Shown here one piece after another: positions 273 through 5,817 of a DNA stretch of 5,817 nt; position 1 is the first letter of the stretch, and every line of letters begins with the position of its first letter. Below the pieces are notes generated by a model. That model saw nothing but the letters and a program-made list of their open reading frames with translations, was not told the DNA's origin and made no database searches. Made by a program: the position numbers and the translations under genes. This DNA comes from an uncultured Solobacterium sp. (lineage in GTDB: Bacteria; Bacillota_I; Bacilli_A; Erysipelotrichales; Erysipelotrichaceae): contig USIC01000063.1 of the NCBI GenBank assembly GCA_900554555.1, positions 1-5,817 on the forward strand, in the 5' to 3' direction.

Positions 273-941
273 ATGTACGAGATTTTTGAGACAAAAGAAC
301 GATTGAGTGCAGATAATACCTTGGAAGCCCAAAAAGTACGTAATACATTAAAAGAACATCGTGTATATCTAATCAATTTAATGGCTTCGCCAGGTGCAGG
401 TAAGACAACAACACTCGTCAGAATGATTGAGGAGCTGAAGAAAGATTACCGTGTAGGTGTGATAGAAGCAGATGTCGATTCTGATGTGGACGCAAAGACA
501 ATTTCTAAGTTAGGTGTTAAGGTAATCCAACTACATACCGGTGGAAGCTGTCATATGACAGCAGACATGACTGCTCGTGGAATGGAAAGGCTGAATATTG
601 AAGATTTAGATGTCGTAATCTTAGAGAATATTGGTAACTTGGTATGTCCAGCTGAGTTTGATACTGGTGCGAATCTAAAACTAGTAATCTTAAGTATTCC
701 AGAGGGTGATGATAAGCCCCTGAAATATCCATTGATGTTTCAGGTGGGCGATATCCTACTTTTTAATAAGATTGATACAAAAGCCATCTTTGATTTTGAT
801 GAAGAACGCTGTAAGGAACATGTTCGTAAACTGAATCCAGATATGGAATTCTATCCAATCAGTGCAAAGACTGGGGAAGGATTTGAAAACATGATGAATG
901 CGATACGCAAGCGTATCGAAGCGTGGAGGAATGCGAAATGA
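273..941 (+). CDS. hypB: HypB-type GTPase, first paralog (nickel insertion accessory protein)
   Basis: SIMIBI-class GTPase of the HypB family, a cytoplasmic protein that couples GTP hydrolysis and dimerisation to nickel transfer. The 222 residues match a HypB core without an N-terminal extension. Visible motifs are the P-loop SPGAGKTT (39-46), the acidic EADVDSDVDA stretch (65-74), Cys93-His94 and Cys125, which match the metal site in the G domain of known HypBs, NKID (165-168) and SAK (197-199) for guanine recognition. The N-terminal CxxCGC nickel site of the E. coli type and any His-rich tract are absent. ATG 273 is supported by AAGGAG at 262-267, 5 nt upstream. It is first in the operon and its stop overlaps the start of the second hypB. 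Family assignment is secure; the client enzyme is unknown. Confidence 0.95.
   Translation: MYEIFETKERLSADNTLEAQKVRNTLKEHRVYLINLMASPGAGKTTTLVRMIEELKKDYRVGVIEADVDSDVDAKTISKLGVKVIQLHTGGSCHMTADMTARGMERLNIEDLDVVILENIGNLVCPAEFDTGANLKLVILSIPEGDDKPLKYPLMFQVGDILLFNKIDTKAIFDFDEERCKEHVRKLNPDMEFYPISAKTGEGFENMMNAIRKRIEAWRNAK
901..918 (+). repeat. Perfect inverted repeat just before the second hypB ribosome binding site
   Basis: CGATACGC (901-908) and GCGTATCG (911-918) are exact reverse complements separated by AA. In RNA this could fold as a 7-bp stem with a CAAG tetraloop. It lies inside the 3' coding end of the first hypB and ends 6 nt before the GGAGG (925-929) that serves the second. It may influence coupled translation of the two GTPases, but it could equally be a by-product of the encoded residues (Ile-Arg-Lys-Arg-Ile). 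Confidence 0.5.
925..929 (+). promoter_or_regulatory. Ribosome binding site that fixes the second hypB start at 938
   Basis: GGAGG lies 8 nt before ATG 938. A GTG at 923 is in frame and would add five residues, but it overlaps this Shine-Dalgarno sequence and has no good site of its own. ATG 938 also gives the classic ATGA overlap with the stop of the first hypB (938-941), which suggests translational coupling. Confidence 0.85.
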
Positions 942-1597
942 AAGTTATAGAACTCCATAAGAGTATTACTGCATCAAATGAAAAGGATGCGGATGCATTA
1001 CGTAGGGGAATGAAATTTCAAGGAACGCTACTCATCAACCTAATGAGTTCCCCAGGCTCAGGGAAGACAACACTTCTAAGTTCAACAATACAAATGTTGG
1101 AGAAAATTAAGATAGCGGTTCTTGAAGCAGATATTGAATCTGCAGTTGATGCGGAAAGAATTGAACAGTTAGGTGCTGTTGCGGTACAGGTACATACAGA
1201 TGGTATGTGTCATATGGATGTGGGAATGACAAAGACAGGCATCGATGCGATGAAGGAAGACGACATCGACCTTGCATTCTTAGAGAATGTAGGAAATCTA
1301 ATTTGTCCTGCGGAATATGATACAGGTGCTAGGTATAATGTCATGATTCTAAGCGTGACAGAAGGTGATGATAAACCTCTCAAATATCCATTGATGTTTG
1401 AAAAGAGTGATGCCCTCGTCATCAGTAAGATCGATGCCCTACCATATTTTGATTTTGATTTAGATGTTTGTATCGAACGTGTAAAGCGTTTGAATCCAAA
1501 TATTCAGATATTCCCAGTGAGTGCTAAAACCAAAGAGGGAATGCAAGAGTGGCTAAACTGGTTACAACAAGAAGTAGCTGAGTGGAAAGAGAGATAA
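938..1597 (+). CDS. hypB: HypB-type GTPase, second divergent paralog
   Basis: A second HypB-family GTPase of 219 residues, with roughly half of its positions identical to the first by eye. It keeps the P-loop SPGSGKTT (38-45), EADIESAVDA (63-72), the metal-site residues Cys91-His92 and Cys123, the shared GDDKPLKYPLMF segment (143-154) and SAK (195-197). The guanine-specificity motif reads SKID (163-166) instead of NKxD, so the Asn that usually contacts the base is Ser. There is no CxxCGC N-terminal site and no His-rich tract. It is the second gene of the operon, probably translationally coupled to the first (ATGA overlap, GGAGG at 925-929). Tandem retention suggests a heterodimer or a division of labour, such as storage versus delivery; this is inference. 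Confidence 0.93.
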   Translation: MKVIELHKSITASNEKDADALRRGMKFQGTLLINLMSSPGSGKTTLLSSTIQMLEKIKIAVLEADIESAVDAERIEQLGAVAVQVHTDGMCHMDVGMTKTGIDAMKEDDIDLAFLENVGNLICPAEYDTGARYNVMILSVTEGDDKPLKYPLMFEKSDALVISKIDALPYFDFDLDVCIERVKRLNPNIQIFPVSAKTKEGMQEWLNWLQQEVAEWKER

Positions 1598-1602
1598 TAA
1601 TT

Positions 1603-4392
1603 ATGACAACTGCCCCAAAAAAGAGAATGACAAATGAACGTGATTTCGTTCCAGATCCAAATTATGTAGCTGCAGATCCAGAAAAGGAAAAACTACTACT
1701 AGACCTTGCATGCATGATTACCAACCGCATCAAGGCAAAGTTAACACATTCTGTGAAAACAGAAGATCCTGAATATTGGATGCTAGATGAACTACTTACA
1801 AAAGAAGAAGTAAAGTTCATGTTATCGTTCAAAAAGACGCGTGTTGGATATAAGCCAGAAGTTCTAGCGAAGAAAAATAATATGACGCTAGAAGAAACAC
1901 AGAAGATGATTGATCACCTATGTTGGATTGGTTTGATAGAGATGAATCGTGAAAATCCGGAGAATGAGAAACAATATAACGTGCCTATTTTCGTTCCAGG
2001 TTCTGCTGAGTTTATGATGATGAATGATGAACTCACAGAAGCACATCCAAATCTAGCGACATTTTTTAACTTAATGACACAGATGCCGCTAGAACCTGTA
2101 ACACCAATGGTTCCACTTGGAGGTGGTGGAATTGGTATGCATGTTATTCCTGTAGAAAAGGCGATTGAACATGTAAATCAATCCGTATCTGTAGAACACT
2201 TGAGTCATTGGTTAGATAAGTATGATAAGTACGCAATCAGCCAATGTACATGCCGTCGCCAACAAGAGATGCGTGGTGAAGGTTCTGGTGAAATCAATGG
2301 TGAATTCTGTATTGGTGTTGGAGACATGGCCGAATACCAGGTTGACCGTGGAAGAGCGCATTATGTTTCTTACGATGAAGTCTTAGAAATCTTAAAGCGT
2401 GGTGAACGTCATGGCTTCGTACATCAAATTACAAATATTGATGGTGAAGGTAAGATTGTAGGTATCTGTAACTGTGCACCTGGTGTATGTAATGCATTAC
2501 GTACATCACAGTTGTACAATACACCAAACTTATCACGTTCCGCATATCGAGCACATGTTGAGAAAGAAAAGTGTGTTGCCTGTGGTAAGTGTGTAGAAGT
2601 TTGTCCGGTTGGAGCTGCGAAGCTTGGTCAGAAGTTATGTACAAGTTTAGGTGCAATTAAATATCCGACAACATTACTGCCTGATGAGACAGAATGGGGC
2701 GAGGATCATTGGAATCCAGATTATCGTGAAACTTCTAAGATTAACTGTTATGACACTGGTACAGCGCCATGTAAGACAGCATGTCCTGCTCACTTAGCAG
2801 TACAAGGATATGTAAAGATGGCTTCTGAAGGAAGATTCATGGATGCTCTTAAACTAATCAAGCAGGATAATCCTTTCCCTGCAGTATGTGGTGCAATCTG
2901 TAATCGTCGTTGTGAAGACGCATGTACTCGTGGTAAGGTTGATCAACCTATCGCGATTGATGAAATTAAGAAATACATCGCTGCACAAGAATTAAACGCA
3001 GAGACACGCTTCGTTCCTTTATGTGAAAAGGACGATGGTGGAATGTGGTCTGATGAATATAAGATTGCGATTGTTGGTGCTGGTCCTGCTGGTCTTTCGG
3101 CAGCGTATTACCTCCGTATGCATGGATATCCTGTAACAGTGTTTGAAAAGGAAAGCCGTGCAGGTGGTATGTTACTGAATGGTATTCCATCTTTTCGCTT
3201 AGAAAAAGATATTATCGAAGCTGAAATCGATGTACTACGTCAGATGGGTGTTGAGTTTAAATACAACATTGAAATTGGTAAGGACACAACAATCCCATCG
3301 TTACGTAGTGAAGGCTATAAAGCATTCTATATTGCGATTGGTGCCCAAGGTGGACGTAAGACAGGTGTTCCTGGTGAAGACGCAAATGGTGTTCAAACAG
3401 GTGTTGAGTTCTTGCGTAAAGCAAATAACAAAGAATTAAGACATGCATTAGAAGGTGATGTAGTTGTTATTGGTGGTGGTAATGTTGCGGTTGACGTAGC
3501 ACGTACTGCTGTTCGTCTAACAGAAGGCAAAGTCACAATGTTATGTCTTGAAGGTGAAAAGGAAATGCCTGCGGCTAGAGATGAAGTACTAGAAGCCAAG
3601 GAAGAAGATATTTCTGTTATGAATGGTTGGGGTCCAAAGGAAATCCTAACTGAAAATGGAAATGTTACAGCCGTTGTGTTTAAGAAGTGCTTGTCTGTGA
3701 AGGATGCGGATGGTAAGTTTAATCCTCAATACGATGAAAATGAAACCATCACAGTTCCATGCAAGAATGTATTATTATCCATTGGACAATCGATCGAATG
3801 GGGCAAACTATTAGAAGGCACACAGGTTGAACTCAATCGCAACAATACTGCTAAGGCTGACCCAGTCACATTACAGACTGCTGACCCAGATATCTTTGTG
3901 GGTGGTGATGTATATACAGGTCCAAGATTTGCGATTGATGCGATTGCGGCTGGTAGAATTGTAGAAGATTCCATTAATCGTTTCGTTCATCCAGGACAAT
4001 CCATGACAATCAACCGTGACCTACGTCATTTCATTGAATTAAATAAGGATGATGTTGTATTAGAAGAATTTGATACAGCTAAGCGTCAAGTTCCTGGACA
4101 TAAACAAGGAAATCCAAAGGCTACATTCAACGATATGCGTTTGGCATTCTCGGATGAACAAGTCCGTACAGAAGCAAAACGTTGTTTAGGCTGCGGAGCA
4201 ACATTTGTTGACCTTAATAAGTGTATTGGTTGTGGTTTATGTACAACACGTTGTGAATTTGATGCGATTCATCTACAAAGAGATTTACCAGATGCGTCAA
4301 GAATGTATCGTTGTGAAGATAAGATCAAGGCTGTTCTTCCTTACGCCGCAAAACGTAAGCTCAAGATTTTATTTAAGAAGAAGAGTAAATAA
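1603..4392 (+). CDS. Multidomain Fe-S/FAD NAD(P)H oxidoreductase (winged helix, CxC module, ferredoxin, GltD-like core, ferredoxin)
   Basis: Predicted 929-residue cytoplasmic electron-transfer flavoprotein; substrate unknown. Order of parts: a winged-helix-like segment (about 60-135); a cysteine module with Cys215-T-Cys217-R-R, Cys236, Cys289-N-Cys291 and Cys296; a [4Fe-4S] motif CxxCxxCxxxCP (324-335); a GltD-type N-terminal cluster region (Cys390, 394, 429, 433, 437, 441); an FAD Rossmann motif GAGPAG (492-497) with Glu515 for the ribose; an NAD(P)H motif GGGNVAVDVAR (624-634); the second FAD signature GGD (767-769); and a C-terminal CLGC (861-864) plus CxxCxxCxxxC (874-884). It is far longer than GltD (about 470 residues). 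The core resembles the glutamate synthase small subunit and its relatives, but no glutamate synthase large subunit is present. ATG 1603 is chosen over in-frame GTG 1582, which overlaps the preceding gene; a purine-rich stretch at 1584-1593 is a weak ribosome site. It lies 5 nt after hypB and 2 nt before hypA. Confidence 0.88.
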   Translation: MTTAPKKRMTNERDFVPDPNYVAADPEKEKLLLDLACMITNRIKAKLTHSVKTEDPEYWMLDELLTKEEVKFMLSFKKTRVGYKPEVLAKKNNMTLEETQKMIDHLCWIGLIEMNRENPENEKQYNVPIFVPGSAEFMMMNDELTEAHPNLATFFNLMTQMPLEPVTPMVPLGGGGIGMHVIPVEKAIEHVNQSVSVEHLSHWLDKYDKYAISQCTCRRQQEMRGEGSGEINGEFCIGVGDMAEYQVDRGRAHYVSYDEVLEILKRGERHGFVHQITNIDGEGKIVGICNCAPGVCNALRTSQLYNTPNLSRSAYRAHVEKEKCVACGKCVEVCPVGAAKLGQKLCTSLGAIKYPTTLLPDETEWGEDHWNPDYRETSKINCYDTGTAPCKTACPAHLAVQGYVKMASEGRFMDALKLIKQDNPFPAVCGAICNRRCEDACTRGKVDQPIAIDEIKKYIAAQELNAETRFVPLCEKDDGGMWSDEYKIAIVGAGPAGLSAAYYLRMHGYPVTVFEKESRAGGMLLNGIPSFRLEKDIIEAEIDVLRQMGVEFKYNIEIGKDTTIPSLRSEGYKAFYIAIGAQGGRKTGVPGEDANGVQTGVEFLRKANNKELRHALEGDVVVIGGGNVAVDVARTAVRLTEGKVTMLCLEGEKEMPAARDEVLEAKEEDISVMNGWGPKEILTENGNVTAVVFKKCLSVKDADGKFNPQYDENETITVPCKNVLLSIGQSIEWGKLLEGTQVELNRNNTAKADPVTLQTADPDIFVGGDVYTGPRFAIDAIAAGRIVEDSINRFVHPGQSMTINRDLRHFIELNKDDVVLEEFDTAKRQVPGHKQGNPKATFNDMRLAFSDEQVRTEAKRCLGCGATFVDLNKCIGCGLCTTRCEFDAIHLQRDLPDASRMYRCEDKIKAVLPYAAKRKLKILFKKKSK

Positions 4393-4394
4393 CC

Positions 4395-4748
4395 ATGCAT
4401 GAAATGGGAATCGTTACACACCTTGCGAAATCTCTTACTGAAATGGCAGAAGAAAACAAGGTCACAAAATATGGTTCAGTAACCCTAGAGGTTGGTGAAG
4501 TATCTGGTATTATGACAGATTACTTCGTAGATTGCTGGAATTATTTCAAAGTAAAATATCCTCTATTACTAGAGTGTGAGTTAAAACTTGAAACAATTCC
4601 TGCCGTAACATTTTGTGAATCGTGTAAACAAGAATATGAGACAGTAAAACATGGAAGAATATGTCCATACTGCGGTAGTGAAGAGACTTACCTTGTAAAA
4701 GGTGATGAATGCGTTATCAAAGAAGTTGAAGCAGAAACAGAAGAGTAG
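4395..4748 (+). CDS. hypA: HypA-type nickel metallochaperone
   Basis: HypA/HybF family, 117 residues, the usual length. It begins Met-His-Glu (1-3), the conserved nickel-binding N-terminus, and has a zinc-finger loop with Cys74-x-x-Cys77 and Cys90-x-x-Cys93. The C-terminal GDECVIKEVE resembles the closing strand of the family. In known systems HypA takes nickel with HypB and passes it to a hydrogenase large subunit or, in Helicobacter, supports urease. Three further cysteines (47, 61, 106) are outside the zinc motif. It starts 2 nt after the oxidoreductase stop, with only a weak purine-rich AAGAAGAAGAG (4375-4385) as ribosome site, so translation is probably coupled. It is last in the operon. 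Family is secure; the receiving enzyme is not in the window. Confidence 0.95.
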   Translation: MHEMGIVTHLAKSLTEMAEENKVTKYGSVTLEVGEVSGIMTDYFVDCWNYFKVKYPLLLECELKLETIPAVTFCESCKQEYETVKHGRICPYCGSEETYLVKGDECVIKEVEAETEE

Positions 4749-4773
4749 AAATTCAAATCTACTCTTCTTTTTT
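4739..4773 (+). terminator. Intrinsic terminator overlapping the hypA stop codon
   Basis: A perfect 11-bp stem, AGAAGAGTAGA (4739-4749) against TCTACTCTTCT (4758-4768), has an 8-nt loop and is followed by five further T residues to 4773. The left arm includes the last two hypA sense codons and the TAG stop (4746-4748). It ends the four-gene operon. The stem is not very GC-rich, but its length and T tail make it convincing. Confidence 0.92.
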
Positions 4774-4792
4774 AAAAGAATTGATATATAAT
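4765..4792 (+). promoter_or_regulatory. Probable promoter of the MATE transporter gene
   Basis: A perfect TATAAT (4787-4792) lies 32 nt before the start codon of the next gene. The best -35 candidate at 16 nt spacing is TTCTTT (4765-4770), a poor match that falls inside the terminator's right arm and T tract. The -10 assignment is better supported than the -35. The strong terminator just upstream implies the transporter needs its own promoter. Confidence 0.5.
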
Positions 4793-4824: not shown

Positions 4825-5817
4825 ATGAGAAAAAGTATGGTAGAGGGAAACCCTTTAAAACTGATATTACAGTTTGCGATTCCACTCTTATTAGGAAATC
4901 TATTCCAACAAACATATAATGTGGCAGATGCCGCAATTGTAGGACAAACACTAGGGCCTGCAGCGCTAGCAGCTGTCGGTGCAACCAGTAGTGTTCAGTT
5001 TTTGGTATTAGGATTTTGTGTTGGAACAATGGCAGGGTTTGCGGTACCGATTGCTCAACGCTTTGGTGCAAATGATTCAAAGGGGATGCAGAAATTTGAA
5101 TTTCAAGGTTGCGTTTGGACATTTATTATTGCGGTGATTATAACTGCCGCAACGTGCTTCTTCTGTCCGTTAATCTTGGATTTATTACGTGTTCCAGCTG
5201 AAATCTATCAGGATACATATAACTATATTATTGTGATTTTTATTGGCATACCATTTACACTTTTATATAACTATTTATCGAGTATCTTACGTGCAATCGG
5301 TGACTCTAAAACACCATTTATCTTCTTAGCAATTTCGGCTGTACTGAATATCTTTTTGGATATCTTCTGTATTATTAACTTGAAGTGGGGTGTTGCAGGA
5401 GCGGCAATTGCGACTGTATTCTCACAAGCTGTATCAGCTGTTCTATGCTTGATTTTAATTGTGATGAAATTTCCAATTCTACACATTCATTCAGAAGAAA
5501 GAAAGTTTGATTCAGAACTATCAAAACAATTGTTGGTAATGGGAATTCCGATGGGTTTACAATATTCAATTACAGCTATTGGTTCAATGATTATGCAATC
5601 GGCAAATAACTCTCTAGGAACAGTGTATGTTTCTGCCTTTACCGCTGGTGTCAAGATTAAGCTGTTCTTGTTGTGTCCATTTGATGCCCTAGCTACTGCT
5701 GTTTCTACCTTTGTCTCACAAAACTACGGCGCAAAGAAAGAAGACCGTATCAAAGAAGGTTTGCTTAAGGGTACTTATGTTGGTGTTGCATATGGTGTGC
5801 TAGCAGGAATCTTAGAT
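4825..5817 (+). CDS. MATE-family multidrug/cation efflux transporter, N-terminal part (runs off the window)
   Basis: The frame is open from ATG 4825 to the right edge, giving 331 residues of a family usually about 450 long, so the C-terminal quarter is missing because of the window, not a mutation. The start has a strong GGGAGG (4810-4815) 9 nt upstream. The N-terminus shows the MATE signature: a short polar leader with GNPLK (8-12), then the first helix with Pro20 and a Q-x-x-N-x-x-D motif (29-35), followed by VGQTLGPAALAAVG. About eight hydrophobic helices can be counted, with an internal boundary near a charged loop (HSEERKFDSE) where the second six-helix half begins. MATE proteins export drugs or metabolites in exchange for Na+ or H+; the substrate cannot be told here. 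It has its own promoter after a terminator, so a functional link to the hyp operon is not implied. Confidence 0.92.
   Translation, partial: MRKSMVEGNPLKLILQFAIPLLLGNLFQQTYNVADAAIVGQTLGPAALAAVGATSSVQFLVLGFCVGTMAGFAVPIAQRFGANDSKGMQKFEFQGCVWTFIIAVIITAATCFFCPLILDLLRVPAEIYQDTYNYIIVIFIGIPFTLLYNYLSSILRAIGDSKTPFIFLAISAVLNIFLDIFCIINLKWGVAGAAIATVFSQAVSAVLCLILIVMKFPILHIHSEERKFDSELSKQLLVMGIPMGLQYSITAIGSMIMQSANNSLGTVYVSAFTAGVKIKLFLLCPFDALATAVSTFVSQNYGAKKEDRIKEGLLKGTYVGVAYGVLAGILD

Follow-up and report, generated by a model that had tools for sequence, protein, structure and literature searches.

An IsrA-type oxidoreductase as candidate client of HypA and HypB in an operon without hydrogenase genes from an uncultured Solobacterium

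The DNA analysed here, which we call the window, comprises 5,817 nucleotides (positions 1 to 5,817 of contig USIC01000063.1, assembly GCA_900554555.1) from an uncultured Solobacterium sp. and carries four co-directional genes on its + strand: two for HypB, one for a large iron-sulfur (Fe-S) and flavin adenine dinucleotide (FAD) oxidoreductase, named OxR here, and one for HypA. Judged against the published description of IsrA by its architecture, its six cysteines and its hypA and hypB neighbours, OxR is classed as an IsrA-type (clade 9) oxidoreductase, and comparison with related genomes indicates that it is very probably the client of HypA and HypB. The metal delivered would likely be nickel, and by analogy with IsrA the enzyme probably reduces dienes. 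Taken whole, our preferred reading, in which OxR is a HypA/HypB-served, metal-dependent reductase of conjugated dienes that in many hosts acts on conjugated fatty acids, is tentative and falls somewhat short of an even chance. The features of the operon and of OxR are as follows.

273 to 941, + strand: HypB1, GTPase nickel chaperone, 222 amino acids (TIGR00073, over cut-off)
938 to 1597, + strand: HypB2, second HypB copy, 219 amino acids (TIGR00073, over cut-off; structure 4lps)
1603 to 4392, + strand: OxR, predicted IsrA-type Fe-S/FAD oxidoreductase, 929 amino acids (Fer4, Fer4_20, Pyr_redox_2)
4395 to 4748, + strand: HypA, 117 amino acids (PF01155; N-terminal MHE, two CxxC)
2245 to 2490, + strand: six-cysteine site of OxR, C215, C217, C236, C289, C291 and C296, with H274 between (invariance in alignments)
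2572 to 2604, + strand: [4Fe-4S] motif C324-C327-C330-C334 (Fer4, residues 319-338)
2746 to 2997, + strand: Fer4_20, two further Fe-S clusters by analogy with dihydropyrimidine dehydrogenase and GltD (PF14691, residues 382-465)
3058 to 3954, + strand: FAD/NAD(P)H domain, Pyr_redox_2 (PF07992, residues 486-784)
4183 to 4254, + strand: C-terminal cysteines C861, C864, C874, C877, C880 and C884 (invariant among 73 aligned proteins)
148 to 185, + strand: intrinsic terminator of the upstream gene (fold of 148-190; T run read)
4739 to 4773, + strand: intrinsic terminator of the operon (fold of 4735-4778; consensus scan)

The four-gene operon described in the initial annotation is borne out by the open reading frames (ORFs) and by family scans, and its genes are as tightly spaced as had been claimed: hypB1 and hypB2 overlap by 4 nt (hypB2 ATG at 938), and gaps of 5 nt and 2 nt precede OxR (ATG at 1603, with an in-frame GTG at 1582) and hypA, respectively. 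The proposed terminators on both sides fold strongly, with -17.1 kcal/mol (z -6.1) for the upstream and -14.9 kcal/mol (z -5.2) for the downstream one; a terminator consensus scan lists the downstream terminator and not the upstream one. Seventeen ORFs of at least 60 amino acids are found in the window, namely the four operon genes, a MATE transporter gene and 12 others that all overlap these in other frames, leaving no space for hypC-F, hydrogenase, urease or carbon monoxide dehydrogenase genes. This agrees with the claim that the operon holds none of them, and neither HypC-F nor a [NiFe] large subunit was found in it by the ORF list or by Pfam and NCBIfam scans of the window. The operon is genuine and well conserved, not an artefact, and the core idea behind it is already known.

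That idea, that HypA and HypB serve this type of oxidoreductase, was published by Kronen et al. 2023 (PMC10134865, cited throughout from the parts of the paper available to us). As described there, the isr operon of Acetobacterium wieringae ISORED-2 is induced by isoprene and encodes the oxidoreductase IsrA, a putative isoprene reductase, alongside two copies of HypA, a single HypB and a 4Fe-4S protein; the host genome has no hypCDEF or [NiFe] hydrogenase genes. Among 988 IsrA homologs, HypA is found nearby in 73% and HypB in 56%. In hydrogenase maturation, as told in the same source, HypB binds nickel and passes it to HypA, which passes it to the client; for IsrA, nickel was proposed to sit at a six-cysteine ‘cluster V’, and the IsrA model has four Fe-S clusters in a chain and a substrate tunnel at the cluster V site (PMC10134865). 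Strain Y is reported to reduce isoprene and butadiene and not to reduce ethene, propene or fumarate (PMC9765523), and a ‘putative diene reductase cluster’ is common to it and strain N (PMC12509576).

OxR resembles IsrA in its length of ~900 residues, its N-terminal CxC...CxC six-cysteine domain, its GltD-like FAD half and its extra ferredoxin sites, and the two CxC motifs are the same 74 residues apart in both proteins (180/254 in IsrA, 215/289 in OxR). The window operon is likewise similar to the isr operon in combining HypA and HypB with an absence of hydrogenase genes, but has two HypB and one HypA rather than the reverse, and no separate 4Fe-4S protein. The six cysteines of OxR are invariant both among 73 aligned proteins and in all of the 106 distinct OxR N-termini compared, which include ones with and without adjoining hyp genes; C324, C327, C330 and C334 are each kept in 105 or 106 of the 106. 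Residues ~380-795 are similar to NfnB, GltD and dihydropyrimidine dehydrogenase, with Fe-S clusters, FAD and NAD(P)H, and the best Foldseek match of the Pyr_redox_2 region is NfnABC (9bov, E 9.8e-39). Unlike OxR, however, those enzymes lack the six-cysteine N-terminal domain and any link to HypA, and OxR scores below the cut-off of each of 25 NCBIfam families listed of 92. The [NiFe]-hydrogenase maturation set HypABCDEF shares HypA and HypB with the window, whereas the operon is without HypC-F or a large subunit and its client would come from another family.

Strong support for OxR as the client comes from a sample of 296 genomes that belong to the same class as G001, the genome carrying the closest relative locus found (L001, whose OxR is 88% identical to that of the window). 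Full-length OxR is present in 22 of them and HypA over cut-off in 25 (and in 4 of 14 control genomes). Each of the 22 carries both genes: hypA shares the strand of OxR, 9-128 bp separate the matched stretches, and hypA lies behind OxR in 21 genomes and before it in one (G108). Counting genomes as independent, this co-occurrence gives a Fisher value of 2.5e-30. A [NiFe] large subunit over cut-off is found in two of the 296 genomes and in none of the 22 with OxR. Another 122 class genomes match OxR, as far as listed, within residues ~367-870 only, the GltD part, and 119 of these 122 have no HypA over cut-off. HypA occurs without OxR in G126, where a [NiFe] match lies 4 kb from hypA with HypB alongside and nearby ORFs resemble what we take to be HypD, HypE and HypF, and in G204 and G307, where a 367-residue six-cysteine protein, HypB, HypA and a flavoenzyme of the old yellow enzyme type form one run. 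This 367-residue protein is 25% identical to the OxR N-terminal domain over residues 208-347, with all six cysteines aligned. All 25 class HypA genes thus adjoin a hydrogenase (1), OxR (22) or a free copy of the OxR N-terminal domain (2), a distribution that points to the N-terminal domain as the putative client. The suggestion in the initial annotation that HypA and HypB serve the oxidoreductase or a partner of it is therefore supported by comparison, including the adjacency in 22 of 22 genomes, and we infer that the nickel would end in OxR itself. Among relatives, neither of the outcomes that the initial annotation named as refuting it was encountered.

The solo six-cysteine runs (L111 4196-8315 and L112 1164-5283) stand beside a divergent TetR gene, and their flavoenzyme, scanned in L111, is related to BaiCD and bilirubin reductase; they are possibly another HypA/HypB client system.

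The survey of relatives proposed with the initial annotation covered 80 loci, the best 80 of 219 from an OxR alignment. The order HypB-HypB-OxR-HypA is conserved on one strand in 34 of them, an arrangement beyond chance, and is not limited to one genome, as it recurs in loci titled Erysipelotrichaceae, Lachnospiraceae and Oscillospiraceae. Partial versions comprise HypB-HypB-OxR in 3 loci (with 36, 483 and 0 bases remaining 3' of OxR), HypB-OxR-HypA in 1 and OxR-HypA in 11; the fixed distance rule behind these counts misses other gene orders (L012, L050, L062, L063, L067, L079). A protein cluster 98% identical to OxR represents 1,690 sequences, indicating that the gene is common in that collection.

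Both HypB copies score far over the TIGR00073 (NCBIfam hypB) cut-off of 121.2 bits (HypB1 232.7, HypB2 246) and are 46% identical to each other, and HypB2 matches the HypB structure 4lps with E 6.3e-43. The metal site of the HypB G-domain is retained in each, as C93-H94 and C125 in HypB1 and as C91-H92 and C123 in HypB2, and both this Cys-His...Cys site and the P-loop residues are conserved in more than 95% of the copies compared, of which 38 are first and 37 second copies. In a HypB tree built by a quick method from 127 rows (115 different), the first copies and the second copies, taken from 43 tandem pairs, require 3 changes each, compared with ~36 under shuffled labels, indicating two old HypB lines that have, with few exceptions, been passed on together. 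Such a history suggests a fixed division of labour between HypB1 and HypB2, which perhaps form a heterodimer. The HypA of the window scores 96.6 bits against PF01155 (cut-off 28.9) and keeps the MHE start and both CxxC motifs; it falls below the equivalog cut-off of NCBIfam TIGR00100 (67.2 versus 88.1 bits) and is thus divergent, and its match to the HypA structure 6g81 is weak (E 3.8e-4).

A lead to the substrate comes from the commonest neighbour besides HypA and HypB, a FAD protein of ~470 residues found in 18 of the 80 loci. Versions of 469-484 residues lie upstream of OxR or its hyp genes in 10 loci, in several cases immediately before OxR, and versions of 462-464 residues lie in a block with an AMP-binding ligase (8/8), a thioesterase (8/8) and a CrtI-like protein (7/8), the families of this block having been scanned in L010 only. 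Copies from L067, L010 and G276 (L127) have as their best PDB match 2b9w (E 1e-102 to 1e-137), which we take to be the linoleate isomerase PAI of Cutibacterium (Propionibacterium) acnes; the PDB table titles it ‘putative aminooxidase’, and the code was not found in any paper by our literature search. Identity as an amine oxidase was rejected for the L010 copy, which matches 2b9w at E 1.9e-137 versus 1.2e-10 for amine oxidases. At E 1e-20 a PAI-like isomerase is present in 9 of the 296 class genomes, all of them among the 22 with OxR (Fisher 1.2e-11), and in none of the 274 without it. Eight of these matches are 64-76% identical to the query; the match in G103, at 29%, is weak and may be another flavoenzyme. 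The isomerase lies on a different contig from OxR in six of the nine genomes, so the link is more than mere adjacency. We also hand-chose 50 of the genomes behind the 80 loci: 40 in which OxR is linked to hyp genes, whatever their order, and 10 others. Most are metagenome-assembled and possibly incomplete, and the choice was not a random draw. The isomerase occurs in 35 of the 40 and in 3 of the 10. Isomerase blocks near the OxR operon were seen at L010, L015, L020, L027, L029, L049, L059 and L079, and the isomerase, ligase and thioesterase may constitute a separate fatty acid modification cluster.

The pairing of a diene-making isomerase with a reductase that has a diene-reducing relative follows the logic of biohydrogenation. 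The reaction proposed for OxR, on a single conjugated double bond of a fatty acid, would be that of the conjugated linoleic acid (CLA) reductase known from Butyrivibrio fibrisolvens (Hughes 1982 and Fukuda 2007, as cited or remarked on in PMC4478896, PMC2654759 and PMC2836310). Fukuda et al. sequenced a gene for such a reductase from Butyrivibrio in 2007, as cited in the first two of these. In A. woodii, an oleate hydratase adjoins the IsrA homolog (PMC10134865); the available parts of that paper make no mention of linoleic acid, and among the openly licensed papers that our literature searches listed, mostly the top matches only, none connected fatty acid isomerases with HypA/HypB or with the IsrA family.

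Coupling these comparisons, we propose that HypA would receive its metal from the HypB GTPases, which perhaps work as a HypB1/HypB2 pair, and would deliver it, most likely as Ni2+, to C215, C217, C236, C289, C291 and C296 of OxR, possibly with H274. Electrons from NAD(P)H would enter at the FAD of the GltD/NfnB-like half (residues 486-784) and run through the Fe-S clusters (Fer4_20, cysteines 324-334 and 861-884) to the six-cysteine site. By analogy with the IsrA model the chain would end there, and at this site a conjugated diene would have one of its double bonds reduced. In many gut and rumen hosts the diene would probably be a conjugated polyunsaturated fatty acid (PUFA), formed from dietary linoleate or linolenate by the PAI-type isomerase. 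For the genome of the window itself, we regard a fatty acid substrate as conceivable but somewhat doubtful.

Several observations weigh against this reading. PAI-like isomerases are missing from G001, the closest relative of the window, from 13 of the 22 class OxR genomes and from four genomes (G043, G044, G045, G049) of Butyrivibrio, a genus known for biohydrogenation. The Butyrivibrio CLA reductase of Fukuda 2007 may be a protein unrelated to OxR, and no metal or enzyme measurements on members of the OxR family were found in the literature that we consulted. By the distance rule, 31 of the 80 loci have no hypA directly behind OxR, some of them with hyp genes near in another order, and the OxR genomes are partly close kin, so that the co-occurrence tests overstate. 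A search of the class genomes with the 367-residue protein yielded nine relatives of ~390-430 residues that span the cysteines, leaving out one further partial match in G128. All nine keep all six cysteines, and HypA over cut-off is absent in eight of the nine genomes and adjoins OxR in the ninth (G062); the six-cysteine site alone thus does not require HypA or HypB. Finally, H274 is Gln in those nine, yet His is retained in 94 of 100 stand-alone relatives of unspecified context, so this residue is no diagnostic.

The substrate is the point at which an alternative fares best. OxR could be a client and a reductase of conjugated bonds with some other substrate, such as an isoprenoid, carotenoid, plant phenolic or bile pigment, the isomerase link being partial; we think this doubtful, although it merits serious attention. 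It would fit the genomes without an isomerase noted above, G001 included, the activity of relatives studied by others on isoprene and butadiene, and the position of the solo six-cysteine, HypB and HypA genes beside a flavoenzyme related to BaiCD and bilirubin reductase. It does not readily explain why the isomerase is confined to OxR genomes in the class, at 0 of 274 elsewhere, yet reaches 35 of 40 among the chosen hyp-linked genomes, and we retain conjugated fatty acids as the candidate substrate in many hosts.

An unlikely alternative is that HypA and HypB aid OxR with iron, zinc or cobalt, or act in GTP-driven assembly only. It draws on the six-cysteine site in relatives from HypA-free genomes, on the divergent HypA below its equivalog cut-off, and on the genes upstream of related operons, which are not known nickel genes: a heavy-metal P-type ATPase and a CsoR-like repressor that is presumably of the copper type. 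The Cys-His...Cys site in both HypB and the MHE and CxxC motifs of HypA argue in the other direction, for nickel. As a mark of HypA dependence the six cysteines themselves are ruled out by the nine relatives, which either bind a plain Fe-S cluster or differ in another feature that decides the need for HypA. Columns L74, G110, P132, G271 and H274 separate the 106 OxR N-termini and the two solo proteins from the nine, in which H274 is replaced by Gln. H274 was rejected as a nickel signature, since the tree has three clades, a single split, and His recurs in the further relatives; it is a lead only. The ~390-430-residue family has no obvious constant neighbour at L131-L139.

Alternatively, HypA and HypB could serve another nickel enzyme of the cell, with OxR a mere neighbour or electron supplier. 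The initial annotation had asked for a search for hydrogenase, HypD and urease genes, which we ran in relatives. Among the 50 chosen genomes, a [NiFe] large subunit over cut-off is found in 1 of 40 hyp-linked and 6 of 10 others (Fisher 8.5e-5), HypD in 1 of 40 and 7 of 10, HypA in 39 of 40 and 9 of 10, HypB in 40 of 40 and 8 of 10, and urease alpha in none of the 50. A few results would suit such an enzyme: Lar_N exceeds its cut-off in 19 of the 50, several of these matches being weak or partial, and G033 has [NiFe] and HypD in addition to the operon. In the four Butyrivibrio genomes, which belong to the 10 others, no hyp gene lies by OxR, and a [NiFe] match, HypA and HypB lie elsewhere. Against this stand the 22 of 22 adjacency, the 24 of 25 class HypA genes that adjoin either OxR or its N-terminal domain in free-standing form, and G001, whose genome, when searched, gave one HypA and two HypB above cut-off and no match for [NiFe], HypD, urease or LarA; we consider another nickel enzyme improbable. 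That the hyp genes are leftovers of a lost hydrogenase that by chance lie beside OxR is scarcely credible, for although most hosts have no hydrogenase, the HypB motifs are intact, two old HypB lines are maintained in 43 tandem pairs, and the gene order is common to loci titled with three families.

The surroundings of the operon are partly kept among relatives. Window bases 3-115 encode the tail of a P-type ATPase for heavy metals, a stretch of 35 residues with 60% identity to L001 3957-6464, and a MATE family transporter lies directly 3' of the operon (4825-5817), as it does in L001, where the same order is found: CsoR-like repressor, P-type ATPase, hypB, hypB, OxR, hypA, MATE. The ATPase precedes the operon in 6 of the 80 loci, as the repressor does in 4 (L001 region 3659-6464), their families having been scanned on their relatives in L117. 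A plasmid origin of the window was rejected, with no megablast match in a plasmid collection. In L012 (8001-14020), OxR and HypA are followed by a second OxR in tandem, and G016, G032 and G047 have, in addition to the main OxR, a divergent second one that is accompanied by a divergent HypA and a small gene resembling a regulator (loci L113, L114 and L116; the regulator, scanned in L113 only, is TetR). G047 also has a separate hypB-hypB-hypA run, and on contig C68 of G026 (L036 2982-4516) both HypB have an insertion of ~35-40 codons near residue 108, giving split matches. A DUF5692 family protein adjoins the operon in L123 (8436-9266), L124 (3996-5072, with a GntR regulator too) and L128 (3303-4130); Kronen et al. 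likewise name DUF5692 among neighbouring families (PMC10134865).

In conclusion, the near-exclusive link between HypA and OxR in one class, the solo six-cysteine, HypB and HypA runs, the old HypB pair and the isomerase link are new as far as our searches show. To our knowledge, few enzyme families use nickel, and HypA and HypB have no proven clients outside the maturation of hydrogenase and urease. A third client family, if true, would broaden the biology of nickel and might account for the retention of these chaperones in gut bacteria that lack hydrogenases. In its boldest form, the proposal would make the operon a new class of nickel enzyme, a HypA/HypB-matured conjugated-PUFA reductase behind a PAI-type isomerase and a main reductase in the anaerobic biohydrogenation of fats by bacteria of the rumen and gut, with the isoprene reductase as one specialised member; we hold this to be unlikely as a whole, though worth stating. 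Were conjugated fatty acids the substrate, the ruminal biohydrogenation step that shapes milk and meat fat would gain testable genes and be tied to a trace metal, and the gene set may let bacteria hydrogenate dietary fats.

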